In this document: piece after piece, positions 3,275-62,357 of the stretch
Numbering within the stretch: the stretch's first letter is position 1
Layout: each line of letters begins with the position of its first letter
From: Paratrimastix pyriformis
Taxonomy: Eukaryota > Preaxostyla > Paratrimastigidae
DNA length: 64,000 bases
Direction: 5' to 3'
NCBI GenBank assembly: GCA_027972325.1
Contig: JAPMOS010000114.1
Span: 1-64,000, forward strand
Notes under the pieces: model-generated
The model's database searches: none
Told to the model about the DNA's origin: nothing
What the model saw: the letters and a program-made list of their open reading frames with translations, nothing else
Position numbers and translations under genes: made by a program

Positions 3275-3354
3275 TGATGTGGTTTAGCCTGTGTTCCCCA
3301 AGAGATTCCCGCCTGGCTCTCTCTCAGTCCAGTTCCTCCCGGCTTAGTACAACA
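3275..3354 (+). repeat. 5' LTR of the mini LTR element
   Basis: 80 bp, TG...CA ends, identical to 4729-4808 by direct reading. Confidence 0.88.
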
Positions 3355-3398
3355 GTGACGTCACTGTGCACTTTTTTCTTCAGTTCTCTCTCTATCTA

Positions 3399-9705: not shown

Positions 9706-11840
9706 CGAGCCCCACCGCATGAGGAAGCTGCGGCGGAGGGCGGTGGAGGAGAGGGACTCGGAAAGGAGGAGGGAGATGCAGCGCCAATTGGCAAAGATGA
9801 GAAGCATGCACTACAAGAAGCGGGACAGGGCGTTGGAGGGAAAACGCAAACGGATATATAAGGGCATAATGACTGACGGGGTGGCGCCCGTCACGGCGTA
9901 TGCCACCAAGAACGGTGAAGGCAAGGTGGATAAGGTGGTGACAGATCCAGAATTGGTGAAGAGGGGATGGAGGGAATTCATGGCGGACCTGGCAAGGAGA
10001 GTGATGCCGATGGGCGGAATGAAGCAGGCACCGGTGGGAAGGTCTCAGGAGGAGGAGAGGGTCATCATGGCCCCCTTACCATGCATGACGTTGAAACGAT
10101 CCTGGGAGCACTCCCAGATGGCAAGGCAGCGGGCCCGGACGGGGTGACGGCGGAGATGATTCACGCCTGTCAGGATGAGATCAAGGAGTGGATGAGAAGG
10201 AGATATAATGAGATGCTGGAAAAGAGTGAGGTGCCGCAGGAGCTCAAGATTAGCTCGGTGTTTATGGCCACGAAATCGCAGACGGAGCACCCGGGGACCC
10301 GGCAGGAAGGAGACCGATCACTTTGATCCAAGTTTTCTGAAGGGGCTGCAGGTGGTGGTGGCGTCGCGGTTTCAAGACTGGTGCGTAGAGAAGCAAGTGT
10401 TTGGGGCGGAGCAGTTTGGATTCTTGAGGGGTCGGAGGATTGAGACCCCAATCGCAGAGATTATGGGAGTGCTCACTGACTCGAAAATTATGGGAGGTCG
10501 AGAGTTCCATATGTGCTCATTGGACATAAAAAGCATACGACACGGTGGACATGGACGCACTGAGGAGGGGGGTTGAGACGGATGGGGTTGAGGAGGCATT
10601 CATCAGGTACGTAGATAGTCTGTACGAGGGAAGGAAGGCGAGAGTGATCACAGGGTACGGACTGACAGAGAGCTACGACATAGAAAGGGGTATCAGCCAG
10701 GGGGACCCGCTTTCGTGTCTGCTCTTTATCTCATTCATGGAGGAAGTGCTGGCAGAGGTGCGAAAGCAGGAAGGTGGGTATATCCTGGATAGTGGGAGGA
10801 AGGTGAAAGTCCTTGCCTTTGCTGACGATGTTATGCTGGTCACTCGAACCAAGGAGCAGATGGTCCGGTTGGTCAACACAGTGAGACGGAAGGTGGAGGA
10901 GGCGGGCATGCAGCTGTCGTGGACCAAGTGTGACTACCTGTGTGGGGGGGTGAAGAGCAAGACGGACCTGGACCTGGGTGAGGGTCGAGTCATCAAGGTC
11001 CAGCAGAAGGGTGGGGCCATCCGATACCTGGGGATTTGGATAGACGAGGAGATGAACATGAAGATCAATACGGAGAAGGTCATCCAGAAAATGTGCGGGA
11101 GGCTGCACAGGCTGATGGACAAGAAGGTCCCCCCGAGGTTGATGGTGCAGATGATCAACGAGTGCGTGTCGACGTGCCTCCAGTACACGGCCAGACAGTG
11201 CCCCATGCCAAAGAAGGACTTGGAGATCCTACGGCAAAGATATGCGAGGGTCTTTAGGGAGATTGGTGGCTGTCTGGGGAAGTGCGATCCGGCGGAGGTG
11301 CTTTTCTTCCCGGAGGATGAAGGGGGCATGGGCCTGAAGGACCCGGTGGATGTGCATGATATGATGGTGCTGACACAGTTGTTGGGGAGAGTGGCGGATG
11401 AGCAAGGATGTGGGGTGATGCTCCGTGAGGAGATTGCACTTCTTCAGAAGTTGTGGACCACAAGTGAACCCCTGCTGGATGACCCGGGTAAGTGGGTAAG
11501 GCTCCACGGAAAGGAGAAGATGCCTGGCATCCTCTCGGGGATGCTGCAGGTCATGTCCAGGAATGATCTGGCCATTCTCAGGGAGGGCGAGGAGCTGAAA
11601 GAGGAGCAGGGGTCTGGGATGCCAACAACACTGGAGGAATTGGCAAGCCCGCACAGGATCACCAAGCAACACAGACAAACACTGATGAGGAGGGGGATCA
11701 GGAGCGTGGCAGACCTGATAGTGGGGGTAGGTTCCAGTGGAAGGGCAGGAAGCCACAGTATGTCAAAGCCATCATGGAGCGGGTCTGCGTCTGGGGAACA
11801 GAGTGGAGACGGAGTACGTGAAGCTGGCGAGGCGGATTAG
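9706..11840 (+). pseudogene. LINE reverse transcriptase (ORF2 middle part)
   Basis: A basic linker (RMRKLRRRAVEERDSERRRE, near 9720-9780) leads to the RT fingers GKAAGPDGVTAEMI (about 10122-10160), a QFGFLRGRRIETP block (about 10410), the first catalytic Asp motif SLDIK..AYDTVDMD (about 10515-10560), the GISQGDPLSCLLF block (about 10690) and the catalytic FADDVML box (about 10815-10840). Thumb and connection follow to 11840. Shifts are visible near 10100, 10270 and 10535; the last splits the first catalytic motif by an extra A. From 10545 to 11840 the frame is fully open (431 aa). It copies element RNA at the nicked target (family knowledge). Currently inactive as written. Confidence 0.82.
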
Positions 11841-22629: not shown

Positions 22630-22685
22630 TGTTTCCGGTTTTGTATGGACGGGGCGTCGACAAGAACCCAGAGTGCACAGGGCGT

Positions 22686-24583
22686 TCATGAACGGGGGGG
22701 GTGAGCGAGAGCCGGTTTTGGGGATCCTCTGGGAGAAAACTGGTAATGCACGCAGCCCTCTCCCTCCCCCCCCCCCCCCCCCCCGAGCCCGATTATCCGG
22801 CCCCCTCCAACGATTTCACCCCCCACCCCCCTCCTCGAGCATTCGTATAAGATCATTTTTGTTTTTGCAGAAAACCGGACCGGAAAACTGCGGGACGGGG
22901 GGCGGTGGTGGGGATGGTGGGGTTGGGGTGTTTTATTCTGGGGCGCGTGACGCCGGCGATCAACGACGGGGACCAGAGCGCCTCCCGCAGCAGGGAGCGG
23001 GGCATCGAAGGTGGCATCGTAAGGCCGCAGCTTGTTGCGCCCGTAGACCTTGGGAATGCCCGGCTTGACCCGATCCTCAAACTCGATGACGTAGGTGCCG
23101 TTACGCATGCGTTCCGCCACCCTCCCGGACCAGCAGAACCTGCCAATGCCGGGCCGGCGCCATTTGGCAGGCGGGCGACCATGACGCGAGTCCCCTCCTC
23201 GATGGTCTCTTGGTCCCTTGTTGCGGCGCCGCTCAATGTAGCCGTACTCGCGGTGCCGGTAGAACGCCACGGCCTCCTTGATTTGGCGCACCTCCGCGGC
23301 CGTCAGGTTGGCGAACTTGTCCGGCAGCTGGGCCATGTCGCCCAGTTGTTCGTACTCGGGGAGGTAGAGCGCCATCATCACAACCGGGCGTTGCTGGAAG
23401 ACCGAAGAAACCGTGGCCGTGTTGTACAGGTGCACGGCGGGCTGCAGGAAGGGCTGCCACGGCAGCTCGCGGTTGGTGGCCGGCACGATACGCATCTTCA
23501 TCACCCGGTTCTTGATCTTCTTGACGGCGTTCTCGGCCTTCCCATGAGACTGGGGGTAGTACGGCCTCGACCGGTGGTGCTCCATGTGGACCCCGGGCAG
23601 CAGGTTCTTGTTCCTGAGCGGGTTGATGACTGTGAAGAGCAAATCCGAAACGCACAGAACAGACGCGATCCACTCGGCCACGCGCTGGTTGACGAACTCG
23701 GTCCCATTGTCGGTCACGATCCGGGTGGGGAGCAGATTGGGCTCGTCGCTGGTGAACACACGACTGAGAAGGTCGGTCACCTCCTGCCCGGTGGCCTTCG
23801 TCTCCCATGTCGCGGCGGCCCACATGTAGCTCGTGAAGTGGTCCACCAGGACGCAGAACGCGCGAGGCGGCTGGCAGCTCATCTCGAAGCCGCCGCAGTC
23901 GAGCTCGACCACCTCGAGGGGCCGGTTGACCACCAAGGCGTGGTACTTGGGATGCTCGTACGTGGGCCGGACGCTCTGGCACTGGCCACACGTCCCGATG
24001 ATGTCCCGCGCAAGCTGATCCACGCCATGGATGTAGAAGAGGCCCTTCGAGTAGGCAATCAGGGCATCTCGGTTGAGGTGCCCCTGCTGGACATGCAAGC
24101 GCCGCAGCAAGCGCACACGGCGGGCAAGCGGGTAGATCACGGGCACCCAGATGGGCCGATCGCGGATCTCGTGGTCGAAGCGGAGCCGCTGCAGAACTCC
24201 CCGCTCGACGCGGTACAACCCTTCATTGGCGTGTTTTAGACAGTTCGACCGGTAACTGCGTGATCCTTCCCGAACTGGAAAAATGAGACAAAGGGGGGCA
24301 TTGATCATGACCCGAAAAAACCAAAAAACAGACGTTCCACCCCGGTAAGGATCAGGTGGATCCCCCGCGCCGTCCGGTCGTAGCTTCCATAATCTGCCAC
24401 ATCACCATCGTCTGCTGCTACATCAACCACGACGTCAATCTCGGCGGCTTCTGCGGGGTCCAGGTCTCCAAGGGCTGGCTCTTCGGCCTCCTCATGTGCC
24501 GCCTCGTCACCATCACCACCTCCGAAAAATAACTCCTCCTCAGGAAGCGGTGGAGGGAGGTCGTCAACTTCGATTGGCTCCAT
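22686..24583 (-). CDS. Retroviral/Ginger-type DDE integrase, copy I
   Basis: N-terminal acidic exon (MEPIEVDDLPPPLPEEE, 24583 to about 24313), a GT-AG intron of about 55 nt, then the main exon. The main exon has an HHCC zinc domain (HVQQGHLNRDALIAY and GTCGQCQ), a catalytic core with VELDCGGFEM, IVTDNGTEF and SHGKAENAVKKIKN giving D, D and E, and a GPY/F-like C-terminal module (CWSGRVAERMRNGTYVIEFE). The enzyme inserts DNA ends into target DNA in the nucleus (family knowledge). With no RT nearby, a DNA-transposon role is more likely than an LTR one. Residues after the GPY/F module are low complexity and may not be coding. Nearly identical in copies II and III. Confidence 0.85.
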
Positions 24584-24788
24584 ATCAGAGGCGCCACAGG
24601 AGTGGCTATCACCCTGGTCATGCAGCCCGTCCAGCGAGCACTACTCCCGGTCCCAGACCCCCTCCGGGTCCCGATCCCGCCCCGGTGGCTTGTTGTTCAA
24701 TCGAGGCAATTTCTCGATGTATCGTGTTTCTTAGAAAAAAACAAACCAAAAAAAAAATCAGGATCGAAAAGAGGGATTGTATTACAAG
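24584..24788. other. Gap between integrase and methyltransferase genes
   Basis: Includes A-rich sequence near 24735-24760 that, on the minus strand, is a T-rich stretch just after the methyltransferase stop. Probably the 3' end of that transcript and the promoter of the integrase gene. Confidence 0.4.
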
Positions 24789-27700
24789 TTACGGCAAGTC
24801 CTCGATTTCCTCGGGCTGAAGGTCCGCGCCCAAAGCATCCGGACTGAGCGGGTCCAGCAGCGGGTTGAGCTCGTCGGAAGGAGGAGGCCACTGATAAGGC
24901 TGATCATCGGGAGCGGGGATGAGGGGGCCCTCTTGGTCATCTTGAAGCTCGAAGGCCTGCTCTTGTTGTTGTTGCTCGGCGGTGGTGGTCTGCTCGGAGG
25001 CCTGCTGTTCTTGTAGAGCCGGGGCAGGTTCTTCTTGAGGGGGGAGCAGAGGAAGATGCAGGTCCCATTCGTCGACAGGGGGTGCAACGACGTTGCAAAG
25101 CTCCGTCTCGTGGGCTTCGAGGGGCAGGTATGCTTCGTCCTGCCGGTGCACCAGCACCGGAGGCACGTGGCCGATCATGAGGCTCTCCACTGCAGGCGCC
25201 CGGTCAATTAGATCAACGCGCGTTCCGGTGGCCTCTGCCGCCAAGAGAGCTGGCCCACAGCCGCAGAAGCAGTCCAACACAGGGCCCGGCCCTCCGTAGC
25301 GGCGGAAGAGGTAGACGTAAAGATCGGCCGGCTTGGCGAAGCGGGCCTGCCCCGCCTGGTGCCGCAGGTAGACCGCGTTGGTGCGCGGGTTGGCCCGGGC
25401 GTTCATCTCGGCCAACTTCGCACTCGGAGAAGGGCACAGTACATCCCAGCGCCAGTTGACGGGCCCCTCGTGGCCTCGCTGGAAGACCTCGATGGGCAGC
25501 TCCACCTCCTCAGGGCGGGGGGCTCCCGGTGAGAGCGACGGCCGGGGGTTGGCCTCCTCGAGGTAATCTGCGCGAAGAAGTGATGAAGAAGGACAAGTTA
25601 AAAACCAATTGCGTGAAGGGAATGAATCACGGACTTCCCCAGATGGCACGAATTCGGTGATCGCTCACGAAATTGAAGCACTCGAGAGCCGGCGTCCATT
25701 GCTGGGACAAGTTGGCCTCGGTATCCATCACAATGATGGTACCATTGGGGGCAATGAACGAGTCGAGGTACTGGGCCAGGGATCCGTAGTCCGGGGTGGG
25801 TCTGTCTCGAGGGTCGTCGGTAATGCCCCAGGGAGCATCCAACACGGCCAAGGTATACAGTGTCTATTGAATGAAACGAGGATGTTAGTGGGGATCCAAC
25901 AAGTTGGAAACTGCAGACACGGCCGGGATTATCCTTCGCGCGAAACAAGATCGCTTCGGCATCCCCGCAGTAGAACCGGGCCAAGGTTTTCCCATGAGGG
26001 ATCGTGGCCCTCCGCGGGTGCGGAAAGCAGCTGGGGGCCGGAACGAGGCGCAGCGGACGCGGGCTTGGTGGTGGCCTGGGCGACTGACGCTGCTGCGGTG
26101 GCTTGGAGTGTTGTTGCTGGGCCGGGGTCTGGGGTTGAGGCTGAGCCGGCTGGGGCTGAGGCGACGGCTTGGGGCGGGCTGCGGCGGCTTGGCCTGGGGG
26201 CGGGCTGCGGCGGCTTGGCCTGGGGGCGGGCTGCGGCGGCTTGGGCGGGCTGCGGCGGCTTGGCCTGGGGGCGGGCTGCGGCGGCTTGGCCTGGCTGGCT
26301 CGGGGCTTGGCTTTGGGCTCGGGCTCGGGCACCGGTTTCGACGAAGGCTGGGCTTCCTCGGTGGCCGACTCCGGTGGGAGTGCGCAGGCCTTGACCTCAT
26401 ACTCGTCATCGGCCTCCGCCGCCTTGGCCTCGGCTTCGGAGGTCGGCTCGGCTTGGGAAAGAAGCGCCTTCAGGGTGGCCCGCTTGGCCGGCTCTGACTT
26501 CGGCGGCTCTGGGTGCTCGGAGGCGGCTTCCTCCCGGAGTGCCCGCCTTTCCTCACGTAGTTCCCGGTCGACGGTCTTCAGCATGCGCTTGCTGGCACGG
26601 GGGATGTCGTGGTGGCCCATCTCCTCCCAGAGCCGGGCGTACGGGCAGTGCTCGGGCATCAGGTAGTCCTGCATTGCCGGTGGCAGTTGTGCCGCGCACC
26701 ACCCCAGCCAGTAGCCGAGGACCAACTCGAACTCGGAGAGACGCCGGCCGTCCATGAAGGTGATCTCTTGGGGCATGTTGCCAACGTCCGTCTCGTTGAG
26801 GCGCTCGAACGGGCAGCCCAGCTCCTCGGAGAAGGCCGGGAGTCGAACCTTGCCCTTGCGGAATGGGAAGGGCCGCACGTTGAGGCAGTTCATGAAGGCA
26901 AAGGTCTCGGTCCGGACGAGATGGCACCGCAGGATCTCCCGGGCGGCCTCGTCGGGGGGCAGGTAGAGGACGGGGGGGTGGTCTCCGGCGGCCACCTCAG
27001 CTGCATCGTGGGCCTCGAGCAGCATGAAGGTCTGCTCGGCCTGCCGAATGGGCTTCTTGAGATCGGCCGCTGCAGTAGAGGTGGCCTCAGAACCACTGAA
27101 CGACCCCTCCAACATGGCGCGAGCAAGCCACCGATTCATCTCCGCATCCCTGGCCTGGCGGGCAGGACGTGTGAGCGGCAGCGTGGAAATGGTTGGTGCA
27201 TGCGGACCTCAAAGATGCGCCACAGGTTCGTGGCTGACGGCTGTCGCTCAACCGGGAGCTGGGAGAGGGCACACAGCATCTCCAGGGAGAAGCACTCCAG
27301 AATCTTCACAAGCTTGGCCGGGGCGTCTTCGCCTTTGGGGAAGTGCAGCTCCTTGAGGGCGGGTTCCAAATGTGTGGCAAAGTCAGGATCCTCACGGATG
27401 TAGCGCTTGGGGGCCTGATAAGGGCGGGGAGGTGGGGTGATGATAATCAATAGACGGGAGACGACAGACTTGGAGGGATGCACGCTTGAGGTTCAGCAGG
27501 ACGTCGAAGGTGCTGCTTCCAAACCGCGCGTCGTGAGTAAGCAGGTTGACCCGATGTTGCAGCTCGAGCATGGCCTCCGGATCGAGAGTGTTGTAAACGG
27601 CCACGTCGATGTAGTCCTCCTTCAGGTGCTGTGCAGGGGGAAGAGGTGCGTTGTTATGAGGGCGGAGACAACGTGCAAGAGACCTGCCGGATCTGGGGTG

Positions 27701-28109
27701 TAGCTTGTTGAGCTTCTCCACCCTTTGGCGAAGCTCGGTCCGCTGTTCTGCGGTGATCTCGGGCGGCAACTCGGAGACCCGGCGCGGGTCCACGATGATG
27801 CGCGCAACCTGGAACCTAGGGGCACGATTAGAGGCCGATCCACCAAAAAAGAGCATTGTCAGACCGGTGCGAGCCGTCGACCACCTGGTATCGAGCCTCG
27901 TCCAGGGCCGACGTTTGGACGATTATGCTGAACAGGACGGCCGCTCCCAGCTTCTCGAACCATTCCACAATTGCTCCGAGGCGCTCGTAGGCAAGGGGCC
28001 GGGCGAGGCTCGGGCAGGGGTCGATGGAGCTCAGCAGCACATGGGCCCTCTTGCCGTGGCACTTTTCCGACAGAGAGAGATCGAAGAGCCCCCCCAACAA
28101 CCCGAACAA
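24789..28109 (-). CDS. ParB-like domain fused to an N6/N4 DNA methyltransferase, multi-exon, copy I
   Basis: Seven exons can be read on the minus strand with GT-AG introns of about 45-80 nt. Exon 1 (to about 27866): LSSIDPCPSLARPLAYERLG, then IVQTSALDEARYQVVDGSHR, a ParB/Srx-type fold ending in DGSHR. The next exons (QVARIIVDPRRVSELPPEI; KEDYIDVAVYNTLDPEAM; RYIREDPDFATHLEPALKEL) are helical. A long exon follows with PFPFRKGKVRLPAFSEELG and a Lys/Glu- then Pro/Gln-rich linker, ending ARFYCGDAEAILF. The next exon carries VLDAPWGITDDPRD (catalytic DPPW-like motif IV) and NGTIIVMDTEANLS. The last has VLDCFCGCGPALLAAEATG (SAM-binding motif I) and an acidic Gln-rich tail. Motif IV before I is the beta-class order. 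Bacterial phages have ParB-methylase fusions; a eukaryotic element version is unusual. Exon joins are inferred. Confidence 0.68.
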
Positions 28110-28166
28110 AGCGAAAGGAATGTGCAGTCAGTAACTTGTTCAAAAAAGGGAAACGATGAAAACAGG

Positions 28167-28739
28167 TCACGAGTGGTGGGAGGAGGCAGGGTGGCGCGCA
28201 AGGTACGCATTGACGATATCAACGACGGACTGCATTACTTGGCGAGCGGGGTGGGAGGAGGGAGGGTGGCGCGCAAGGTACGCATTGACGAGATCAACGA
28301 CGGACTGCAGTACTTGGCGAGCGGCCTCCGGGGAGAAGTCGTCCGGGTCGGTCGGCCGGGCCCGCTTGCGCTCGGCCTTCGCCTTGGGTTCGGGGGCACG
28401 GCCGCCCTCGTCCGACGACGAGGAGGAGATCTCCACTGGGGCCGGGTGCTTGTGCCGGTGCCGCGGCCTGGCGTCCTCCTGGGGGCGTCGTCCGAGCCCT
28501 TCGCCTCCGCAGCCTCCTTGGCCTCATGAGGCGGCCCAGGCTTCCGGCGGGCCGGTGGCGGGGGGCCGGGGCCTTCGCCTCCTTGGCGGCCTCCTTCTTG
28601 GACTTGGCGGCCACCGGGGCCGCCTTCTTGCCTCTTCGGGGGCCTCGCGATCCTTCTTGGGCTTGGCGGCCGCCGGGGCCGCCTTCTTGGGCTTGGGCGG
28701 GCTCGGCACATCATCGTCGTCCAGGATTCTGAAATCCAA
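28167..28739 (-). CDS. Histone-H1-like basic protein, copy I
   Basis: The minus strand reads an acidic start (ILDDDDVPSPPKPKKAAPAA), then Lys/Ala/Pro repeats (KPKKDREAP, VAAKSKKEAAKEAKAPA), Arg/Pro-rich sequence and a Ser/Asp patch (MEISSSSSDEGG). It ends with two tandem repeats of a helical peptide (QVLQSVVDLVNAYLARHP and QVMQSVVDIVNAYLARHP; DNA 28190-28325). Composition is that of H1-tail or nucleoid-type DNA-binding proteins. The low-complexity part changes frame between copies I and III, so exon structure there is uncertain, and it may be the first part of the ParB-methylase transcript. Nuclear DNA compaction is an inference from composition. Confidence 0.45.
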
Positions 28740-28936
28740 AAAGAATCAGCTGGGAAAGGCCAGAACCCGCTCCGACAGACGGCCGAGCGGCTCCAGTTCC
28801 CTTGTCCTTGTGCTCGACGGCGCCAGAGGCGGGCGTCGTCGGACGGGCGGTCAGGGCGGTCGGGGCCTTCGGGGCGGTAGGGGTCGGGGCAGGGGGCGCT
28901 CCTGGTGCGGTGTGCGTGGCGGCGGGGGCGGGAGAC

Positions 28937-29337
28937 CTAACAAAGAACGAATTTAGCACCGAGCCGGAGGTGCGATGCAAATACGGACGAGGGCTCCTCG
29001 CGTTCGGGCTCGTCCTCCTCCCCACCGATGTCGAGGAGGAGGTCTTTGCCGGCGGAATCAGGTGAGGACGGCCGGAAAAGGCCGTCAAAAGTCTGTCGAA
29101 TCAGCTCCAGATGGTAGGGCGTCATGAGCCCCGCGCCCAACGGCTGGGTGAGGGAGGAGAGGCGTCGACGGAAGCTATGACAACAAGTTTCGGGAAAACG
29201 AGGGAGCGAGTAAAAACAAACCAATTGATCGCCTGGTAACCCTCGGCCCATTTCGGGGGGTCCTGGCCGATCGCACCCTCGCAATACTCAATGGCTTCTT
29301 GGGGGGTGTGGAACTGGTTCCAATCGATCGAGTTCAT
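28937..29337 (-). CDS. Small two-exon protein of unknown function, copy I
   Basis: Exon 1 from ATG at 29337: MNSIDWNQFHTPQEAIEYCE, then GAIGQDPPKWAEGYQAIN, followed by GTTTGTTTTTACTC...TGTCATAG, a GT-AG intron of about 47 nt. Exon 2 reads RRLSSLTQPLGAGLMTPYHL, then LIRQTFDGLFRPSSPDSAG and an acidic stretch to about 28950. It is the first gene on the minus side of the satellite array, so the array edge probably carries its promoter. Not recognised. Conserved in copy III (47198-47598) almost without change. Confidence 0.5.
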
Positions 29338-29394
29338 CTGAAAACGGCAAAAAGGCGCGTTAACAAAGGTTAGAACCCGGGGTAAGGTCCACCT

Positions 29395-31320
29395 CGCGAG
29401 TTGAATGAGAACACCACCACCTCGAAAAATTCGATGTCAGAACACCACCTCGAAAAATTCGATTTCTATTGAAAATCCATACCGCCGGTATGGATTTTAG
29501 TACCGACAAACATCGCGATACCGGTTCTGATGATGCAAATCGATGAGTTTCACCGAAAAACACTTGGGATGATGTCGGAACACCACCTCGAAGAATTCGA
29601 TTTCTATTGAAAATCCATACCGCCGGTATGGATTTTAGTACCCCCGACAAACATCGCGATACCGGTTCTGATGATGCAAATCGATGAGTTTCATCGAAAA
29701 AACACTTGGGATGATGTCGGAACACCACCTCGAAAAATTCGATTTCTATTGAAAATCCATACCGCCGGTATGGATTTTAGTACCCCCGACAAACATCGCG
29801 ATACCGGTTCTGATGATGCAAATCGATGAGTTTCATCGAAAAACACTTGGGATGATGTCAGAACACCACCTCGAAAAATTCGATTTCTATTGAAAATCCA
29901 TACCGCCGGTATGGATTTTAGTACCGACAAACATCGCGATACCGGTTCTGATGATGCAAATCGATGAGTTTCATCGAAAAAACACTTGGGATGATGTCGG
30001 AACACCACCTCGAAGAATTCGATTTCTATTGAAAATCCATACCGCCGGTATGGATTTTAGTACCCCGACAAACATCGCGATACCGGTTCTGATGATGCAA
30101 ATCGATGAGTTTCATCGAAAAACACTTGGGATGATGTCAGAACACCACCTCGAAAAATTCGATTTCTATTGAAAATCCATACCGCCGGTATGGATTTTAG
30201 TACCGACAAACATCGCGATACCGGTTCTGATGATGCAAATCGATGAGTTTCATCGAAAAACACTTGGGATGATGTCAGAACACCACCTCGAAAAATTCGA
30301 TTTCTATTGAAAATCCATACCGCCGGTATGGATTTTAGTACCGACAAACATCGCGATACCGGTTCTGATGATGCAAATCGATGAGTTTCATCGAAAAACA
30401 CTTGGGATGATGTCGGAACACCACCTCGAAAAATTCGATTTCTATTGAAAATCCATACCGCCGGTATGGATTTTAGTACCCCGACAAACATCGCGATACC
30501 GGTTCTGATGATGCAAATCGATGAGTTTCATCGAAAAACACTTGGGATGATGTCGGAACACCACCTCGAAAAATTCGATTTCTATTGAAAATCCATACCG
30601 CCGGTATGGATTTTAGTACCGACAAACATCGCGATACCGGTTCTGATGATGCAAATCGATGAGTTTCATCGAAAAACACTTGGGATGATGTCAGAACACC
30701 ACCTCGAAAAATTCGATTTCTATTGAAAATCCATACCGCCGGTATGGATTTTAGTACCGACAAACATCGCGATACCGGTTCTGATGATGCAAATCGATGA
30801 GTTTCATCGAAAAACACTTGGGATGATGTCGGAACACCACCTCGAAAATTCGATTTCTATTGAAAATCCATACCGCCGGTATGGATTTTAGTACCGACAA
30901 ACATCGCGATACCGGTTCTGATGATGCAAATCGATGAGTTTCATCGAAAAAACACTTGGGATGATGTCAGAACACCACCTCGAAAAATTCGATTTCTATT
31001 GAAAATCCATACCGCCGGTATGGATTTTAGTACCGACAAACATCGCGATACCGGTTCTGATGATGCAAATCGATGAGTTTCATCGAAAAAACACTTGGGA
31101 TGATGTCAGAACACCACCTCGAAAAATTCGATTTCTATTGAAAATCCATACCGCCGGTATGGATTTTAGTACCGACAAACATCGCGATACCGGTTCTGAT
31201 GATGCAAATCGATGAGTTTCATCGAAAAACACTTGGGATGATGTCGGAACACCACCTCGAAAAATTCGATTTCTATTGAAAATCCATACCGCCGGTATGG
31301 ATTTTAGTACCGACAAACAT
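29395..31320. repeat. Palindrome-rich satellite array, copy I (about 14 units of about 140 bp)
   Basis: Units of about 133-142 bp repeat with few changes. Each has a 12-bp inverted repeat around GCC (AAAATCCATACC/GGTATGGATTTT; first at 29472-29498), a TCGATGAGTTTCATCGA-type palindrome and a GAAAAATTCGATTTC block. Units differ mainly in short runs (TACCGACA, TACCCCGACA, TACCCCCGACA; five or six A after CATCG). It fills the space between divergent genes. Open frames through it are repeat artefacts. Confidence 0.95.
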
Positions 31321-31328
31321 TTGATGGT

Positions 31329-31377
31329 TTAGTGGCTCTAACCTTGGGTAATAGCCACACTTGATCCCGCCAAAATG
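31329..31377 (+). promoter_or_regulatory. Shared upstream block of gene A
   Basis: AGTGGCTCTAACCTTGG...ATCCCGCCAAAATG, ending at the start codon. Related blocks occur before gene B (33747-33794) and downstream of gene A (about 33528-33560), and an identical one in copy III (50779-50826). Likely core promoter and start context (inference). Confidence 0.45.
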
Positions 31378-33451
31378 CCCAAGGAAAGCACTCAGGAACT
31401 TCGTGAGACGCGCAGCGGCCGCCGTTACCCGACTCCTCGTCACTCGCGGGATGACTCCTCGGAGGAGGAACCGCGAGGCCATTCGAGGAAACGTGCGCGC
31501 GCTGAACCCAAGTCATCCGCCGCCGATGCAGCGCCGGCCTCGCCTCTTCGCCTGGACACTGTCACCGAAGATGAAGCTGAGCAAGAGGAGACCCAACGCG
31601 CCAGCCAGGAACACGAGGCGACCGAACAGGAACAAGAGGAGATCCAACATGCCAGCCAAGATGCCGATCAACATCACCCAGTCGTCTTCATTCCATCAGC
31701 CGAGCATTCTTCCAGCAGCGAACATGCGCGGGCGAGCGTGCTACCCGAGCCGCCCACCGCCGAGCCCGAGGAGACCCCTGAGCCTGAGCAGACCACCGTG
31801 CCAGAGCAGACCACCGAGCCCGTGCCTGAGCAGACCACCATCGAACCTTTGGAGACCACCACAACTGAACCCGAGGTGACTACCTCCGACCCTGTGCAGG
31901 CCACCACCACCGAACCCGCAGAACCCTCAGAACCCGAACCGGCGCAGTCCGAACTACAGCAAACCGGCACAGAACCGGAAGCCGCCGAGCAGTCCGTCCC
32001 TGGTGAACCCGAGCAGCTCGCCGAACCCGAGCAGCCCGCCGAACCTGAGCTGACCCCCGAACCCGAGCAGACCGCAGCCCCTCCTCCGACGCCCTCAAAG
32101 CAGCCCCCCAACGCCGGACCGCCCCTCCGTCGTCGTCGCTTGCCCCTCCTCCGAAACCGAGGGCGGGTTCGCCTCCCAAGAAACTGCCCGACTCCATCCC
32201 GCCCAAGACGCCAGCACAGGCCCCCGGCTATCAAGAGGTCCGCTCCCGTTCCCCGACATCGATCCTGGCAACCCAGCGTTCACCGCCGCCGCCGGCTGCT
32301 GGTTCAATCGTTGCTCTCAAGACGCCTCCGCCTCCGGCATCCGTGCCTTCCAGAACCCCACGTGCAGCCCCTGTCGCGTCCTCCGCCTCACGTGCAGCCC
32401 CGGTCACCGCCACGAGCACTACTGCCACGCCTCCAGCAGTGGCTCCGGGTCGGGCTTCCGTGCCTCCCAGAACCCCACGTGCAGCCCCGGTCACCGCCAC
32501 GAGCACGACTGCCACGCCTCCAGCAGTGGCTCCGGGTCGGGCTTCCGTGCCTCCCAGAACCCCACGTGCAGCCCCGGTCACCGCCACGAGCACGACTGCA
32601 AAGCCTCCAGCAGTGGCTCCGGATCGAGCTTCCGTGCCTCCCAGAACGCCCCGCACCGCCACGAGTTCCACGTCATCAGTCCCTCCCACAACTTCGAGTC
32701 CTCATCAGCCTCTGTCGTCGTCGAACACCGCCCCCCCGCCCCTCAATCGGTCTGTTTTTCTGTTTTACCTCTTGTGGGTTCCTTAAAACCTCTCCTCCAG
32801 GATCTACCTCGTCTGGCAATCGGAGACAAAGGAAGTGTTGAAACTCACTCGACAGGCATTTTACGAACGGATCTTTCCCAAGCTGCTTGCAAGTTGGTTC
32901 CCGAGCACAAACCATCTGAATCGCGGTCTCATCGTCCCTGTTCATTTTTTCGAGACCATGGCTGAGTACCGACTCTCCGGTGCCATCTGTGTTGAGATGC
33001 ACAAGGTACTTAACCGGTTGGGACTCACCTTCGGAAAATCCTGTTTTCGATGACCTGCGGTCAAAGTGCTGATATCGAGAAGACCTACCAGTTCCTGACT
33101 TCAAGAGCCTTGATGATTCTTGTGTGTCTGGATTCCGAGGCTGCATTCGGCGTCGACCGTGCCGTCGATGGCCACATGAGGCTGGATGAGCTTGCCCTCT
33201 GGGAACGCACTTTCCCCTTCTACGTCAAGGAGGTTTTTCATGACCGTTCCATGTTGGAACTCACTGACTACTACGGAGAACAGTTCCCCAAGGTATTCCA
33301 GGCTTGCGAACGTGAATACCTCGCTCTCTCCGAAGACGAACGGAAGACCTATGACTGGTCGATTCAGTGCCACAAGTTCCGCACCAACACCTGCTACCGC
33401 GAGATTCCGGCCCATTGGGACTGTCTCTTCAAGTTCACTGGGAACGCATAA
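31375..33451 (+). CDS. Gene A: unknown three-exon protein with long acidic/Pro-rich N-terminus
   Basis: Exon 1 starts MPKESTQELRETRSGRRYPT, continues with Glu/Gln/Thr/Pro repeats (EPEQTTVPEQTTEP style) and ends with Pro/Ala repeats near 32749. Intron 32750-32800 (GTCTGTTTTTC...CTCCAG). Exon 2, 32801-33005, encodes LTRQAFYERIFPKLLASWFP and LNRGLIVPVHFFETMAEY. Intron 33006-33082. Exon 3, 33083-33451, encodes LDSEAAFGVDRAVDGHMRLD, LTDYYGEQFPKVFQACERE and YDWSIQCHKFRTNTCYREIP. The C-terminal 190 residues look globular and are shared with gene B. No domain recognised. The reading frame through the low-complexity part is not continuous, so the exon structure there is uncertain. It is transcribed away from the satellite, divergently from the methylase block. 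Confidence 0.6.
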
Positions 33452-33791
33452 ACAACCCGAGACTTTTTTGTCTCTATCTCTCTCCGCCACCTTCTTCCCG
33501 CTTTCCATGTGTCCCTGTTTTTTGAAAGAGTGGCTATTACCCCTGGAGCCTCGTCGCATCGAGAAGACCGTTGATCTATTGTTCGACCATAACTTTTATC
33601 TTGTGCGGAACCCGTCAGCGTGGGTCCGTTCACCGAGAAGAGCGTGTGCCAGCCGTAGTTCGTCCTACAAGGGGAACAAAACAGAGAGATGGCGTGAGAA
33701 ATAGTGCTTTCCTTGTGTCTGATTTTGAACTTCCTGGTTTTGAAAAGAGTGGCTGTTACCCCCTGGAGTATCCCGCATGGAAACCGCCAAA

Positions 33792-35067
33792 ATGCAGAGG
33801 AAGCACGCAAGTCATGCCATGCTTAGCAGACGGACTCGGTCTCGCCAGGTGATCATTCTCGTCGAGGACGTCCCCGAGTCCCTTCCTGAGCCCCTTCCTG
33901 AGTCCCTTCCTGAGCCCCTTCCTGAGCCCCTTCCTGAGTCCCTTCCTGAGCCCCTTCCTGAGCCCCTTCCTGAGCCCCTTCCTGAGCCCCTTCCTGAGCC
34001 CCTTCCTGAGCCCCTTCCTGAGCCCCTTCCTGAGCCCCTTCCTGAGCCCCTTCCTGAGCCCCTTCCTGAGCCCCTTCCTGAGCCCCTTCCTGAGCCCCTT
34101 CCTGAGCCCCTTCCTGAGCCCCTTCCTGAGCCCCTTCCTGAGCCCCTTCCTGAGCCCCTTCCTGAGCCCCTTCCTGAGCCCCTTCCCGGCATGATGCCAC
34201 GACAAGCCCCCCCGGCTACGAAGTCCGCTGCTCCCCCGCTCCTCAATCGGTCTGTTTACTGTTTTCCCTGATGTGTTGTGGGTTTCTCATGCCTCTCCTC
34301 CAGGACCTACGACTTCTTTCAACCGGAGGACAAGACCGAGGTGCACCTAAGCCGACAGGCTTTTACGAACGGATCTTCCCCAAGCTGCTGGCAAGTTGGT
34401 TCCCGAACACGAATCATCTGAATCCCGGCCTCATCGTCCCCGTTCACTTTTTGAAGCCGTTGACTGAGTACCATTTCTCCGCTCCCATCTGTGTTGAGTT
34501 GCACAAGGTACTCACCCGGATGGTTCTCGCTTTCGGTGGCGTCCTTTTTCCTTGACCAGCGGACGCTGTTCTGATACGTCGCAGACCTACAGGGGCCTGT
34601 CAGCAAGAGCCTTGCTCATTACCCTGCTCCTTGATTCCGAGGCTGCATTCGACATCGACCACCCCATCGAGGGCCCGATGAGGCTCGATGAGATCGTCCT
34701 CTGGGAACGCTCTTACCCCTTCTACCTCAGGGGGTTCTTCGTGACCGTTCCCTGTTGGAGCGCACTGACTACTACGGAGAACAGTTCCCCAAGGTATTCC
34801 TGGCCTGCGAACGTGAATACCTCTCTCTCCGCGGACGAACGGAAGACCTATGACTGGTCGATTCAGTGCCACAAGTTCCGCACCAGCACCTGCTCGCGCG
34901 AGCTTCCTACCCTTTGGGACTTCCTCTTAACTGGGCCCCTTCCTCTGCCCCTTCCTGTCCTTGTGGCTGAGCCCGAACCCGTGCCGGAATCCGTGCCCCT
35001 TCCCGAGAACGTGCCGGTAGCCGATGATGACGAAGATGAATGGTTTGCCGGCGATAAATTCGGATGA
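33792..35067 (+). pseudogene. Gene B: tandem paralogue of gene A with PLPE repeats
   Basis: Starts [20 protein letters not shown] after a GCCAAAATG context like gene A. A long PLPE/PLPES repeat follows, then the intron 34250-34303 (GTCTGTTTACTG...CTCCAG), an exon with YDFFQPEDKTEVHLSRQAF and WFPNTNHLNPGLIVPVHF, a second intron starting at the GTACTC after LHK (ending GTCGCAG), and a C-terminal exon with LDSEAAFDIDHPIEGPMRLD and YDWSIQCHKFRTSTC. The tail is Pro/Glu/Val-rich and Asp-rich. Compared with A the frame is disturbed in exon 2 and later, so this copy is probably decaying. Function unknown. Confidence 0.5.
33876..34190. repeat. 12-bp minisatellite CCCCTTCCTGAG encoding PLPE
   Basis: About 26 near-perfect 12-bp units within gene B exon 1, with a few CCC-to-TCC variants that encode Ser. 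Confidence 0.95.
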
Positions 35068-36057
35068 CGACACTGGCAACAACGACTACAACACACTGGC
35101 AACAACGACTACAACGCCAACCCCCAAGGCGAAGACGAAGACGAAGACGAGTAATGAATCTGGTTCTCTTTTTGATCCGAAATTAGAGGCTCGACGTTTT
35201 CTCTCGAAAAAAGGAGGAGGAAGTGCGTCAGGGTGAAGCAAGGTGAAAGTGAAGCAAGGAGGATTTGGGAGGGTCTGTTCATGAAAACCCGCGGGCCCTC
35301 ACTACAGACAGGCCGAGTGGGGAGGGTCTGTCCACGAAAACCCGGAGGCCAGAGCGTCGGGCTTTTTTCTATAGAAATCTCAATGTCTATAGCGTCCACA
35401 GAAACCCTGGAACACTGACACACTGGCGGCCGTTCCCTTTGGGACCCCCAGTGGGGGCACGGGAGGAGCGCCCCAGGGGTCCGGCGCTCTACAAGTGGGG
35501 CCCCAAATGAAGGTGGTGCAGCCGCAGCTTCCACCCGGCGAAGGGTGGTGGGACTAGGCGCCAGCGGCCGAGGGCGCTCTACAAATACCCCGTTCAACTC
35601 TCAGCCTGGGCACGAGACGTCGGGCAAGCTTGACGGGAGCAGAGAGGAAAGTCTGTCGTCGCATCCTCTCTCCGCCCTCTTGGGTGAAACACCACTCGTG
35701 ATCTCTGCGCACTCTCCCTCCTCCGAGTGCGTGCCCTCAGCACCCACGTACACCTTCCAGTCCCTGCCCATCATTCCGGCTCATCCCATCCCCACCTCCG
35801 AGGGCCATGATGGGGCGGCTCCGTCCCGGGAGGGCGAGCATCCCTGTCTTGGACCCATCACGATCACTCCTGCTTGGGGTCACTCTGTCCATTCACAGGC
35901 AAGGCTGAGAACAGTGCACTTGTCCGCCTTGCCCACAGCCGGGTGGCATTATTCCATAGTATTTCTGCTCCCCTACTCGGTGCTCTGCGGTGCTGTCCTG
36001 CCTGGAGTGGGATCACACTTCACACACGGACGCGAACTATACTGAGAGCATTTGGTT
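35068..36057. other. No recognised gene; small direct repeats
   Basis: Contains a doubled CACTGGCAACAACGACTACAA (35070-35115), a doubled GGGAGGGTCTGT...AAAACCCG (about 35268-35300 and 35321-35351) and a doubled GCGCTCTACAA (about 35483 and 35574). The open frame at 35545-36045 has no recognisable domain. Confidence 0.45.
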
Positions 36058-39122: not shown

Positions 39123-40900
39123 TGTTTCCGGTTTGTATGTACTGGGCGTCGACAAAAACCCAGAGTGCACAGGGCATTCATGAACGGGGGGGGGGGGGGG
39201 TTGGGGGTTGGGGGTGGGGTGGGGGGGGGGGGGGGTGCTGCGTGGACGTGCACGCATTCACATTTTCTCCTCTTACGACCCCATCCCCCCACCACCACCC
39301 CCCCCCCCACCCCCTGTCTTTTGGTTGATGTAATAGCGACCCTCCATCGCTCCCCCCCCACGTGCGTTGCCAGATCATTTTTGTTTTTGCAGAAAACCGG
39401 ACCGGAAAACTGCGTGACGGGGACGGGGGGCGGGGGGAGGGGTTTGGGGGTTTATTCGGCGGGGTGGCGCCGACGATCAACAACGGGGACCAGAGCGCCT
39501 CCCGCAGCAGGGAGTGGGGCATCGAAGGTGGCATCGTAAGGCCGCAGCTTGTTGCGCGCGTAGACCTTGGGAATGCCCGCCTTGACCCGGTCGTCAAATT
39601 CGATGACGTAGGTTCCGTTGCGCCGGCGTTCCGCCACCCTCCCGGCCCAGCAGAACTTGCCCATGCCGGGCCGGCGCCATTTGACGGGCGGGTTGACCAT
39701 GACGGGAGTCCCCTCCTCGATCGTCTCTTGGTCCTTGTTGCGGCGCCGCTCAATGTAGCCGTACTCGCGGTGCCGGTAGAACGCCACGGCCTCCTTGATT
39801 TGGCGCACCTCCGCGGCCGCCAGGTTGGCGAACTTGTCCGGCAGCTGGGCCATGTCGCCCAGTTGTTCGTACTCGGGGAGGTAGAGCGCCATCATCACAA
39901 CCGGGCGTTGCTGGAAGACCGAAGAAACCGTGGCCGTGTTGTACAGGTTGACGGCGGGCTGCAGGAAGGGCTGCCACGGCAGCTCGCGGTTGGTGGCCGG
40001 CACGATACGCATCTTCATCACCCGGTTCTTGATCTTCTTGACGGCGTTCTCGGCCTTCCCATGAGACTGGGGGTAGTACGGCCTCGACCGGTGGTGCTCC
40101 ATGTGGACCCCGGGCAGCAGGTTCTTGTTCCTGAGCGGGTTGATGACTGTGAAGAGCAAATCCGAAACGCACAGAACAGACGCGATCCACTCGGCCACGC
40201 GCTGGTTGACGAACTCGGTCCCATTGTCGGTCACGATCCGGGTGGGGAGCAGATTGGGCTCGTCGCTGGTGAACACACGACTGAGAAGGTCGGTCACCTC
40301 CTGCCCGGTGGCCTTCGTCTCCCATGTCGCGGCGGCCCACATGTAGCTCGTGAAGTGGTCCACCAGGACGCAGAACGCGCGAGGCGGCTGGCAGCTCATC
40401 TCGAAGCCGCCGCAGTCGAGCTCGACCACCTCGAGGGGCCGGTTGACCACCAAGGCGTGGTACTTGGGATGCTCGTAGGTGGGCCGGACGGTCTGGCACT
40501 GGCCACACGTCCCGATGATGTCCCGCGCAAGTTGATCCAGGCCAATGATGTAGTAGAGGCCTTTCGCGTAGGCAATCAGAGCATCTCGGTTGAGGTGCCC
40601 CTGCTGGACATGCAAGCGCCGCACCAGACGCACACGGTTGGCAAGCGGGTGATCACGGGCACCCAGATGGTCCGGTCGCGGATCTCGTGGTCGTAGCGGA
40701 GCCGCTGCAGAACTCCTCCAACGGCGCGGTAGAACCCTTCACGGGCATGTTTGCGGCAGTTCGACCGATAACTGCGTGTTCCTTCCCGGACTGAAAAATG
40801 AGACAAACGGGGCATTGGTCATGACATGGAAAACCAAAAACAGACGTTCCACACCGTTCAGGATCATGTGGATCCCCCGCGCCGTCCGGTCGTAGCTTCC
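39123..40900. mobile_element. Integrase element, copy II (short, 1.8 kb)
   Basis: Begins with the shared TGTTTCCGG terminus and GGCGTCGACAA..CCCAGAGTGCACAGGGC block, then long G/C homopolymers, then the integrase region. It ends at CGGTCGTAGCTTCC (40900), where copy I would continue ATAATCTGCC but copy III begins. It is more diverged from I and III than they are from each other, so it is the older copy. It lacks everything upstream of the integrase. Confidence 0.7.
39452..40815 (-). pseudogene. DDE integrase, copy II, partial
   Basis: Keeps the HHCC zinc domain, the D-D-E core and the CWAGRVAERRRNGTYVIEFD GPY/F-like module with only scattered substitutions against copies I and III. The acidic N-terminal exon is mostly missing because the copy ends at 40900. 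It looks broken, with few breaks in the part that remains. Confidence 0.75.
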
Positions 40901-50947: not shown

Positions 50948-51562
50948 ATGGCCTGCGAAATCACTGCGGTGAATGATGATCTGGACGACGCAACCATTGC
51001 TTTTATTGAAAAACATGCTTCTATTCTTGATGAAGAAGATCCATTTCTGTGCTTTATTGACGAGCTCGAGTAAGGCTGGTACTGTCGACTCGCACTTCTT
51101 TTTCCGCGAGCACTTCCTTTCCTCTCCCGAGCCAGCGAACCCCTTTTCTTATTCCACTTCATCAATCCTTCTTTCCTAACAATTGCTTCAAATACATTTG
51201 GCGATTGAATGTCACAACTCGAGTCACAACCTGCCGAGGGCCTTATGGATCGCGCCTTCCCTGAATTGGAATGGAAATCAATCCTATCGAACAAGGTGGG
51301 CACCGTCTACCTGCAGCGATTATGTCTTTCTCTTGGAGTTGACTATGAGTCGCCATCGAAGAAAACGACCCTCATCGCCCAGCTGGCTCCTCTGCTCGCA
51401 GAACGGCACTTCACACCTCAGAAGGTGTTGCAGATATTGAAACTCCAAAGTTGGATCGATATATCGGCGTCTGGATTCCAAGCACCACTCATCACAAGTA
51501 GTTATAAAAGGAGAGTTCTGAGACAAGCGATTTTCACACACAATTTTTCACGCTTGCGTTGA
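50948..51562 (+). CDS. Divergent relative of the module protein (probable two exons)
   Basis: Exon 1 from ATG at 50948: MACEITAVNDDLDDATIAFI, EKHASILDEEDP and CFIDELE, then a good GTAAGG donor at about 51071. The downstream open frame 51209-51562 includes LESQPAEGLMDRAFPELEWK, LGVDYESPSKKTTLIAQLAP and LLAERHFTPQKVLQIL. These align in order with the first 120 residues of the 4850-5944 product (FI..HA.IL..DP...DEL; then a YE......LLED-like block and an QKVLQIL/QFIFQLL helix). The acceptor is not obvious. Function unknown. It sits between the integrase-element junction and the AT-rich viral block, so it could be host sequence or the flank of either. Confidence 0.45.
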
Positions 51563-52397
51563 TATTTGAGGCAAAAATCGATTTCTTCAGAACAAAATCT
51601 TTTTTTCTCATTATATTTTATCGAAAAGGAGCATTTTATTTTATCAGCTTTGAATGATTTAAGCATTAATTTTCTCGAGCTACAAACGTTATTTGAGGCA
51701 AAAATCGAATTCTTCAGAGCAAAATCTTTTTTCTCAATGTTTTTTAAGTAAAACGAGCATTTTATTTTAATCAGCTTGGAATGATTTAAGCATCAATTCA
51801 TTCGAGCTACAAACGAAATTAGAGGCAAAAAGCGAATTCTCCATGCATTTTCAATTTTTTTTCCATTTTTTTGTCCCAGAAATTATTTTGCCATTTTTGT
51901 CAAATCAAACAATTCAATCATCTTAAGCATCAAACGAAAGAGAATTCAATCAGAAACAGCTTATCTCTTCATTCAAAATAAAATTGTGACAAAAGTGCTT
52001 TTCAAAAGTGATCATTAAATAATGCATCAATCTTAAGTAAATAATGCATTCTTTTGATTGAATCAGCTCAAATAATTGATTCTAAGAAAATGGAAAAGTA
52101 TGACAAAATGATAAAACAATATGAAATTTGATTTCAGCACCGAGCCCTTTAAAGCGAAAATTTACTCAGCTTTGACATGAATTGAAAGAGAAATCAATCA
52201 GATTTACCTTCTATTTCAAAGAGATAAAAACAGCGTTTCATCATTTGAGCTCTGAGTGTTTTAAGATGATAATTCAATGAGCAACTGATGATATAATGAG
52301 GAATATCTCATCAGAATGCGCACTCATTATAATCACTGAATCAGTAAAGGTATTTTAAGAAAAATTATTATCTATAGTTAGTATATAATAACCACTA
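51563..52397. other. AT-rich non-coding sequence with about 120-bp repeats
   Basis: Sharp fall in GC. A unit TTTGAGGCAAAAATCGA.TTC... runs at about 51568, 51690 and (partial) 51820, with AGCATTTTATTTTA.TCAGCTT.GAATGATTTAAGCAT and CGAGCTACAAACG inside. No gene. It may be the terminal-repeat region of the viral element, or its flank. Confidence 0.55.
51568..51850. repeat. Imperfect about 120-bp AT-rich tandem repeats
   Basis: Two full and one partial unit sharing GAGGCAAAAATCGA, GAGCATTTTATTTTA and GAGCTACAAACG blocks. Confidence 0.7.
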
Positions 52398-53080
52398 ATG
52401 TCAAGCAAGCAATCTGTTGAGTCTGATATGCCAGTTGTGATCATTCCGAACGATTTCACAGTTAAGAAGCTGTCAATTGAAGCCTTATCTGAATCGTCCA
52501 GGAAGCAAGAGAAGACAATGAAGATGTGTCACATTGAACATAATGGTAGTAACCTATTAGTTCAGACGCCACAAATCGACTTAGGACCTTATGGAGTGAA
52601 CTTTTACGAGAACACTAAAACCATCAGGTTACCAGTTGAGAATGTAGGCGATGACTTTAAGAAGATGATAGACAAGCTCGAGAAGTACTGTCAAAACAAT
52701 GTGGAAAGCATTGTGAATGGTACTTTGAAGAAGGCAAACCAGATGAATTTCAATACAAATCATTTGCCAAGACGAGTGATAATGACAAGTTTCCGAGCTA
52801 CTATAAAGTAGCAGTTGGATATGCAGATACACTGTATCCGAGTGTCTTCCGAAAAGATGAAGATGGTGAGGTAAAACAGGACACAACAATACAAACAAAC
52901 GAGGATTTACGGAAAGCCGTCAATCCAGGGAGCACAGTTAAAATGATAGTCCAACTTAAAGTATGGGTTGATGATAAGCAGCATTATGGAATCTCAGCCT
53001 CATGCAAACAGCTACTTATAGTGAAAGAAGGGAAGAAGAAAGCAGACAATTCAAAGTCTCTTTTGCTTAAATATTGGTAG
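52398..53080 (+). pseudogene. Viral ssDNA-binding-like protein (DUF5871-type pattern), broken
   Basis: The N-terminal part has MCHIEHNGSNLLVQTPQIDL, GPYGVNFYENTKTIRLPVEN and a LEKYCQNNVESI helix. Coding character continues to about 53080 (YYKVAVGYADTLYPSVFRKD; VKMIVQLKVWVDDKQHYG). The QTP..L..(P/F)GV opening, central helix and late K-x-W-hydrophobic strand resemble a family common in large DNA viruses, thought to bind single-stranded DNA (recalled by pattern, not searched). About one break. Part of the viral fossil, first gene of its visible plus strand; convergent with the fibre-like gene. Confidence 0.45.
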
Positions 53081-56039: not shown

Positions 56040-56103
56040 CTATATAACCGCAATAGAAAAATACAAAAACATGAAAAGATTAAGGTGTTGATTGACGATA
56101 AGT

Positions 56104-56574: not shown

Positions 56575-56586
56575 ACTTAGTGGTGA

Positions 56587-57570: not shown

Positions 57571-57586
57571 ATTAGTTAACTAATAT
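57569..57586. promoter_or_regulatory. 18-bp perfect palindrome in the divergent viral promoter
   Basis: ATATTAGTTAACTAATAT overlaps the start codon of the minus-strand acidic protein and lies 50 bp before the ATPase ATG. TTAGT(A/T)A-like strings also precede other starts of the element (about 52377, 58675 and 61523), so it may be a promoter element (inference). Confidence 0.35.
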
Positions 57587-57636
57587 AGTTCACACACAAA
57601 ATATTTTTTCTAAACAGATTATAGTTACAATTCAAA

Positions 57637-58524: not shown

Positions 58525-58699
58525 TCAAAGCCTCTACTCCATGACAATTACCTTAACCTTTACAATGCCTATTGGGAGATGAGAGAAGGCTACAGAACCA
58601 AGGTAAAAATGGTTGAAGAACAAGTGTCGAGCAGCAAATAGGTAAGATTTTTATAATTTGAGTATTTTTTTATCTTAGTATGATATTAATTATCACACT

Positions 58700-60895: not shown

Positions 60896-60944
60896 GCTGT
60901 GGAGACTCCATTCATCACAAGTTTTATTCCATTTCCTAAGTGAC

Positions 60945-61151: not shown

Positions 61152-61239
61152 GTTGCATTGTGACGTATTATATTTTGTCTTATCGAACATAACAGAGATG
61201 ATTTCTGCTGCCATTGAATGTAGCTAATAAAATAGTCGA

Positions 61240-61476: not shown

Positions 61477-61533
61477 TGTGATCCAGTATATTTAGTCGAT
61501 AAATTTTTTCTCCATCAATTGTATTAGTAACCA

Positions 61534-62355: not shown

Positions 62356-62357
62356 AT

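Follow-up and report, generated by a model that had tools for sequence, protein, structure and literature searches.

Whether transposons methylate their own DNA, and for what purpose, is a general question raised by a mobile element in the genome of Paratrimastix pyriformis, a free-living anaerobic flagellate and a metamonad host; the many near-identical copies of the element and a conserved array make the question testable. The element was followed up in a 64,000-bp stretch (hereafter the window, positions 1–64,000 of contig C18) and in the genome as a whole (56.06 Mb, 495 contigs). The original prediction for this locus had described a eukaryotic mobile element combining a DDE integrase with a fusion of a ParB-like domain and a DNA methyltransferase. 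The locus is best explained as a DNA transposon of the integrase type that is, or until recently was, active; it would be Ginger-like in a broad sense and carry a ParB/sulfiredoxin (Srx)–methyltransferase fusion as an accessory gene. We consider this explanation probable as a whole, and the anatomy of the element is held with high confidence.

Limits, ends and copies of the element

The complete element, copy I, spans 12,785 bp at positions 22630–35414. These limits are based on end-to-end colinearity with a copy on contig C268 and on both ends, each of which recurs at least 40 times in the genome at 99–100% identity; the right boundary, originally placed at 35067, is corrected accordingly to 35414. 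The termini are 22-bp imperfect inverted repeats of the TG...CA type, TGTTTCCGGTTTTGTATGGACG at 22630–22651 on the plus strand and TGTTCCAGGGTTTCTGTGGACG on the minus strand at 35393–35414. They match at 17 of 22 positions, a level reached by one in 200,000 random 22-mer pairs drawn from the window. The left end starts with TGTTTCCGG and the right end, read inward, with TGTTCCAGG. The genome-wide terminus search that had been proposed returned 40 or more occurrences of the TGTTTCCGG end with 100% identity across 72–73 bp. Among 19 copies read with this end, left flanks differ in 18; the window's copy III and the C284 copy have the same flank. Contigs C268, C253 and C111 terminate within about one base of the element left terminus, where the assembly probably breaks at repeat edges.

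Five-bp target duplications were found in three of the four copies with both flanks readable (CCCTC on C200, AAATA on C444 and GGCTT on C73), and the four sites have no common motif. Repeated ends, distinct flanks and duplications bear out the predicted mobile element. The C200 copy, with its left end at 16370 and its right end at 34584, contains matches to the integrase, the methyltransferase, the ParB part, the array and gene D, which places the methylase block inside the element ends, between the CCCTC duplications. The predicted second copy is likewise present: copy III begins at 40901, is 97.6% identical to copy I over 22630–31320 and extends to 50899, its right side being truncated inside gene C. 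It interrupts an older, decayed integrase end at 39123–40900. The main text of the P. pyriformis genome paper has no word starting with 'transpos' (PMC10703272).

One observation in the window itself speaks against a clean insertion: copy I is flanked by GACGG and CTGAC, which is no target duplication. The GACGG that ends its left flank also starts the right flank of the C181 copy and occurs in an uninserted paralogue near window position 17966, and beyond GACGG the C181 flank reads on as this paralogue. Because of this recurrence, we infer that window copy I is broken or mis-joined, apparently consisting of two half-copies fused by assembly or by recombination among near-identical repeats.

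Integrase

The main open reading frame (ORF) of the integrase gene (22686–24401, minus strand, 571 amino acids) encodes an H2C2 zinc finger and an rve core. It scores 3.1e-9 for Pfam rve, 7.2e-6 for Integrase_H2C2 and 1.3e-7 against PFV integrase; its best NCBIfam match is IS481 at 3.4e-10, under the family cut-off. A 51-nt intron at 23614–23664 separates the second D from the E, and its length differs in other subfamilies, as that of introns would; after its removal the D2–E distance is 41 residues (DD41E). The predicted integrase with HHCC and D-D-E motifs is thereby confirmed. An acidic first exon beginning MEPIEVDD is probable at 24341–24583 on the minus strand, from a reading of the sequence and a predicted splice.

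No reverse transcriptase (RT), ribonuclease H (RNase H), DNA polymerase or capsid family was found among the element ORFs tested, and the anticipated Ginger-type, integrase-only transposon holds in the broad sense: H2C2 and DDE, no RT. Polinton/Maverick elements carry DNA polymerase B and capsid genes and make 6-bp target site duplications (TSDs), against 5 bp here. A remnant of a long terminal repeat (LTR) retrotransposon, or a Polinton, would share with this element the retroviral-type integrase, the TG...CA ends and 5-bp duplications; it is opposed by the lack of all the families just named from the ORFs tested and by the ends themselves, which are inverted, the left-end sequence having no direct repeat at the right end. 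We regard such an identity as very improbable.

Structure of the ParB–methyltransferase gene

Beside the integrase lies a gene with the domain order ParB/sulfiredoxin-like, middle, beta-class amino-methyltransferase. Its exons run from 28061 to 24789 on the minus strand and have GT-AG splice sites. The first of them (27865–28061, with an uncertain 5' boundary) encodes the ParB/Srx core, and exons 2 (27684–27815), 3 (27470–27628) and 4 (27208–27414) follow. Exon 5 (25919–27154) comprises the middle domain, a Pro/Gln-rich linker and the start of the methyltransferase domain; exon 6 (25635–25863) contains motif IV, LAVLDAPWG; exon 7 (24789–25567) contains motif X, AKPADLYVYLFRRY, motif I, VLDCFCGCG, and an acidic tail. 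The DGSHR and DAPW blocks singled out in the original prediction, like the DCFCGCG block of motif I, stand on exons of one gene. Further N-terminal exons at 28167–29337 on the minus strand, represented in predicted proteins P0001, P0003 and P0005, encode MNSIDWNQF... and a Lys/Pro/Ala-rich segment that had been taken for a separate H1-like protein. Because several host models run from MNSIDW through the Lys/Pro/Ala-rich segment to ParB in one protein, this segment is assigned to the ParB–methyltransferase gene; the linker ORFs tested gave no linker-histone model match and one sub-cut-off match to RsiG.

The predicted fusion is upheld by a copy on contig C305 (locus L016), in which the seven exons, when spliced, give 978 codons with no stop and with agreeing splice phases. 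P0001, a host model, has four ParB-side junctions identical to those of the element gene model. In a divergent subfamily the domain order is the same, and one of its loci, L055, has an open frame over the stretch matching exon 5, from the middle domain across the linker to the methyltransferase start. Simple counts, with few changes per exon, gave ratios of nonsynonymous to synonymous change (pN/pS) of 0.10–0.15 for exon 6, 0.28–0.42 for exon 7 and 0.43–0.89 for exon 5 against loci L022, L032 and L033, and of 0.04 for exon 3 against L022 and L032.

Several findings pull the other way. All seven exons were seen in 9 of the 19 copies examined, and in one of these nine (L016) only are they free of stops. 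P0005, the model of the window copy, retains the intron that follows exon 2. For 27 host database proteins, the best local alignments span at most 53% of the 978-residue query; the methyltransferase part, searched within the length limits of the tools, returned no database model joining it to ParB. An arrangement of two adjacent element genes, one for a ParB-like protein and one for a methyltransferase, would account for host models that stop or diverge within the proline-rich stretch of exon 5, none of those found including the methyltransferase. The continuous spliced frame of L016, the continuous linker frame of L055 and the domain order common to both subfamilies argue against it, and we judge two separate genes unlikely.

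The broken frames of the fusion gene may have a technical source. In the 13 copies where exon 2 was found, it measures 132 nt in four, including copy I, and a frame-keeping 133 nt in seven. Substitutions among main-family copies are very few and short length differences are many, which suggests uncorrected long-read errors. Nanopolish and Pilon correction, as well as intron hints drawn from RNA-seq, are described in the genome paper (PMC10703272).

Identity of the methyltransferase and ParB-like domains

Profile evidence for the putative methyltransferase is modest but consistent. In alignment A1, which has three members, one of them a hand-joined composite, all three members match the PADLOC mad2 profile (best 2.4e-5) and each of two PHROG DNA-methyltransferase profiles (best 0.0024 and 0.0034); in the first member, the mad2 and PHROG matches fall near motifs X–I. 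The motif order IV–X–I is as in beta-class amino-methyltransferases, and DAPWG, DPFCG/DCFCG and motif X are conserved in the alignment. ParB cores have an arginine motif of the DG.HR or GERR-like kind, and the putative ParB-like core here reads YQVVDGSHR. UniRef has 'ParB/Sulfiredoxin domain' in the names of 14 of the 27 host proteins matched, and neither Pfam nor PDB gave a match.

The canonical motif IV of amino-methyltransferases is [DNS]PP[YFW], and its replacement by DAPW in all three A1 rows tells against the assignment, as do Pfam, NCBIfam and PDB sequence searches with no significant methyltransferase or ParB match. A profile search of the host genome with Pfam N6_N4_Mtase and ParB_N matched no exon of the fusion gene; a single sub-cut-off N6_N4_Mtase match fell on contig C135. 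The methyltransferase, with its atypical DAPW, is a putative enzyme. The fusion protein might instead be catalytically dead or a structural DNA-binding factor, such as a transposition co-factor acting with the integrase. DAPW and the weak profile scores would suit such a factor, whereas motif I, which binds S-adenosylmethionine (DPFCGCC/DCFCGCG), and motif X rank with the most strongly conserved blocks, as would be expected in an enzyme. We give this alternative a minor but real chance.

The top profile, mad2, belongs to a PADLOC defence system, and ParB–methylase fusions occur among prokaryotic conflict proteins (PMC5512222). Both would fit a defence cargo, in which a methylase mark would shield the DNA of element or host from a nuclease directed at unmodified DNA such as that of viruses, and the window also contains a viral-type insertion. 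No restriction nuclease family was found in the element ORFs tested, a possible ParB-like nuclease role apart, and defence cargo is an improbable reading.

The protein searches gave no match beyond the host. A search with the whole protein gave 27 matches, all from P. pyriformis, the methyltransferase region alone gave none, and the methyltransferase alignment gave one, a Logan contig with 99% identity over 63% of the query; the whole-protein and alignment searches scored only about 8000 candidates sharing most words, and length limits applied in all three. In a phage collection, tblastn reached E = 2 at best. Two phage candidates were set aside: a match annotated as methyltransferase (two records, one phage), whose gene is split into two coding sequences, was not used, and a ParB match lying antisense to a phage gene was rejected as chance.

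Palindromic array

Between the start of the ParB–methyltransferase gene and gene C, that is, between two diverging gene sets, lies the tandem palindromic array that had been predicted (29433–31320, period 138–140 bp, 13.6 units). In copy I the 17-bp palindrome of the array, CCATACCGCCGGTATGG, is found 14 times, against 19 in copy III, and all matches to a looser pattern are this exact sequence. The copy III array comprises about 22 units, including shorter ones of 120 bp, and some of the shorter units apparently have no palindrome. In subfamily 2, CCATACCG-C-CGGTATGG is changed to CCATACGA-G-TCGTATGG, with two bases altered in each arm and pairing kept; since L022 and L032 are closely related, this counts as one event. 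The second, smaller dyad of the unit was not reported in subfamily 2. Dyad arms of at least 12 were found in none of 3,000 158-base samples from window positions 1–22 kb, a region of higher G+C. TCGA occurs 53 times in the 1,888 bp of the array, against a mean of 7.0 and a maximum of 15 in 300 mononucleotide shuffles; these counts come from one repeated unit and so are not independent, and the enrichment is only a lead. TCGA density in the subfamily 2 array is about half.

The genome holds 1258 array matches, and the position of the array was tallied over the matches listed. Of the 21 contigs for which the ParB part, gene D and the array are all listed, 17 have the array between the other two (C18, C111, C115, C133, C181, C193, C200, C214, C247, C253, C254, C261, C280, C295, C364, C390 and C487). 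Because of this placement, the idea of a general host satellite is not favoured. In C88, C101, C285 and C447 a partner gene is not listed adjoining the array, a contig end being near in three of them, and nine further array contigs have no ParB part, no gene D or neither among the matches listed.

Two sites count against a strict tie between the array and this place: array sequence stands beside an element left end at C115:5084–5221, and again at locus L034 on C66. At L034 an element is inserted into an array. An element left end (C66, L034) and an element right end (C115, L045) both adjoin array sequence at CCCCG, and the array itself is therefore an insertion target.

Genes C and D and the divergent subfamily

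To the right of the array, gene C (31375–32841, plus strand, end approximate) begins with a low-complexity N-terminus, MPKESTQELRETRSGRRYP. The gene D domain follows as a tandem duplicate on the plus strand, at 32730–33429 and 34230–34928, with 80.7% DNA identity between the two copies. It has 150 matches in the genome, and a composite gene D query matched nothing significantly in Pfam, PHROGs or PDB. Between the copies, at 33876–34186, lie 25.9 copies of a 12-bp repeat, GAGCCCCTTCCT, encoding a repeat of Leu-Pro-Glu-Pro type; it is longer in C268.

A divergent subfamily (contigs C88, C61, C137 and C233; loci L054–L057) shows mostly 30–50% identity to the main family in aligned segments, with block order kept. 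L054 has DGSHR, DAPWG and DPFCGCC, spread over more than one frame. The C88 element (41.3–54.6 kb) is arranged as integrase (minus), gene D (minus) and ParB–methyltransferase gene (plus), and the opening parts of gene C and the ParB gene have only weak matches there (E = 0.005 each). A GAT trinucleotide run of about 250 units stands between integrase and gene D on C88 (L029 with L054, 2242–3012). The 13.3 kb of this element, the one divergent element readable, hold no recognisable array, which counts against a general pairing of ParB and array. The predicted integrase, ParB–methyltransferase and gene D are thus conserved across subfamilies despite the rearranged order, and the array is not.

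Linkage of the methyltransferase to the integrase is close: in 19 of the 22 best integrase loci, the locus's own methyltransferase match lies within 12 kb. The remaining three are C365, with no match, C53, with fragments only, and the truncated copy at window 39–41 kb, for which the nearest methyltransferase match is that of copy III.

Proposed roles of the fusion protein and the array

In the present element, the integrase would cut and join the TG...CA ends, and the fusion protein would methylate adenine-N6 or cytosine-N4 in element DNA. The ParB-like domain would help to hold, travel on or nick the DNA, and the array, in the divergent intergenic region, would be the likeliest site of docking and methylation. 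Methylation would then control the element's own transcription or mark newly made or moved copies. Self-methylation of the element is a tentative proposal for the role of the fusion protein, to which we give slightly less than an even chance, and docking at the array is a doubtful one. Less likely again is self-recognition of a prokaryotic style in a eukaryotic nucleus, in which the fusion protein and the TCGA-rich palindromic array would jointly form a parS-like site for docking and methylation and couple methylation state to expression, copy number or transposition, much as Dam methylation times some bacterial transposons.

The ParB domain of Bce_0392, which is fused to a methylase, has nicking activity, and those of prokaryotic polyvalent proteins are described as for the most part lacking sequence specificity and as probable nucleases regulated by nucleoside triphosphates (PMC5512222). 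Specific binding of the array is for this reason not favoured; instead of reading the array, the ParB part may serve to nick or hold DNA.

Other elements in the window

Positions 51000–64000 are AT-rich (about 36–41% GC) and carry viral-type genes. One encodes a packaging ATPase resembling A32 (Pfam Pox_A32, 2e-8), another a long, fibre-like protein that includes Peptidase_S74 (1.6e-8), and a gene at 58679–59908 with no Pfam match may encode a capsid protein. In this metamonad, the region resembles an integrated polinton-like virus or virophage relative. A Gag-like ORF at 3348–4514 (plus strand), with zinc knuckle and weak aspartyl-protease matches that all fall under Pfam cut-offs, probably belongs to an LTR retroelement. 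The reverse transcriptase ORF at 10530–11840 (plus strand; RVT_1, 2.8e-20), with several duplicated blocks around it, is probably of non-LTR type.

Comparison with known systems

The original prediction knew of no described element with such a set of parts. Within PubMed Central, searches turned up neither a description of this element nor its exact set of parts together with an integrase; accessory genes of this kind, which the prediction overlooked, are known from algal transposons. In Ectocarpus, the 1104-residue Sola1-1_Ec32 protein of a Sola-1 giant DNA transposon combines a ParB-like part with an N4mC/N6mA methyltransferase, and its authors cite green and red algal counterparts and propose that such proteins bind and modify the element that encodes them (PMC12477816). 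Here too, a ParB-like part and a putative N4/N6 amino-methyltransferase stand in one large predicted protein, judged by reading frame, motifs, weak profiles and database names, within transposon ends. The vehicles differ, an integrase element here and Sola-1 there, and the available text on Ectocarpus mentions neither an array nor a gene D (PMC12477816). The bacterial Bce_0392 protein likewise fuses ParB/Srx to an amino-methyltransferase (PMC5512222), whereas the P. pyriformis gene is eukaryotic, bears introns and has extra N-terminal and middle domains.

Among integrase-type vehicles, Ginger2/Tdd elements are reported with lengths of 2.8–6.7 kb, inverted repeats of 45–297 bp, TGTNR ends, an AT-rich target preference and TSDs of 4 bp, or 5 bp in Dictyostelium TDD-4 and TDD-5 (PMC2836005). 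The present element resembles them in its H2C2 finger and DDE core, its TG...CA ends, the lack of RT and 5-bp duplications as in TDD-4/-5, and departs from them in its 12.8-kb length, 22-bp repeats, TGTTT/TGTTC ends, DD41E spacing and extra genes (PMC2836005). Because its termini and repeat length fall outside the published Ginger2/Tdd range, it is classified here as Ginger-like and not as a member (PMC2836005). Ginger1 is set apart by 4-bp duplications, CCGG or CCGT, against the 5-bp CCCTC, AAATA and GGCTT found here. IS481EU elements are integrase-like DDE transposons of parabasalids, also metamonads, some with TGT..ACA ends, and with duplications of about 4, 15 or 25 bp (PMC10045372). They share with this element the transposon type, a metamonad host and the affinity to IS481, the best NCBIfam match although below cut-off; the HHCC finger present here (Integrase_H2C2) is, in the available description, absent there (PMC10045372).

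Given the Ectocarpus Sola-1 report, the kind of accessory gene was already known (PMC12477816); new here are a Ginger-like integrase element as its vehicle, its occurrence in a metamonad, the array and a third gene that is conserved. A ParB–methyltransferase accessory gene on an integrase transposon in Metamonada suggests that such genes have been taken up repeatedly by unrelated eukaryotic DNA transposons.

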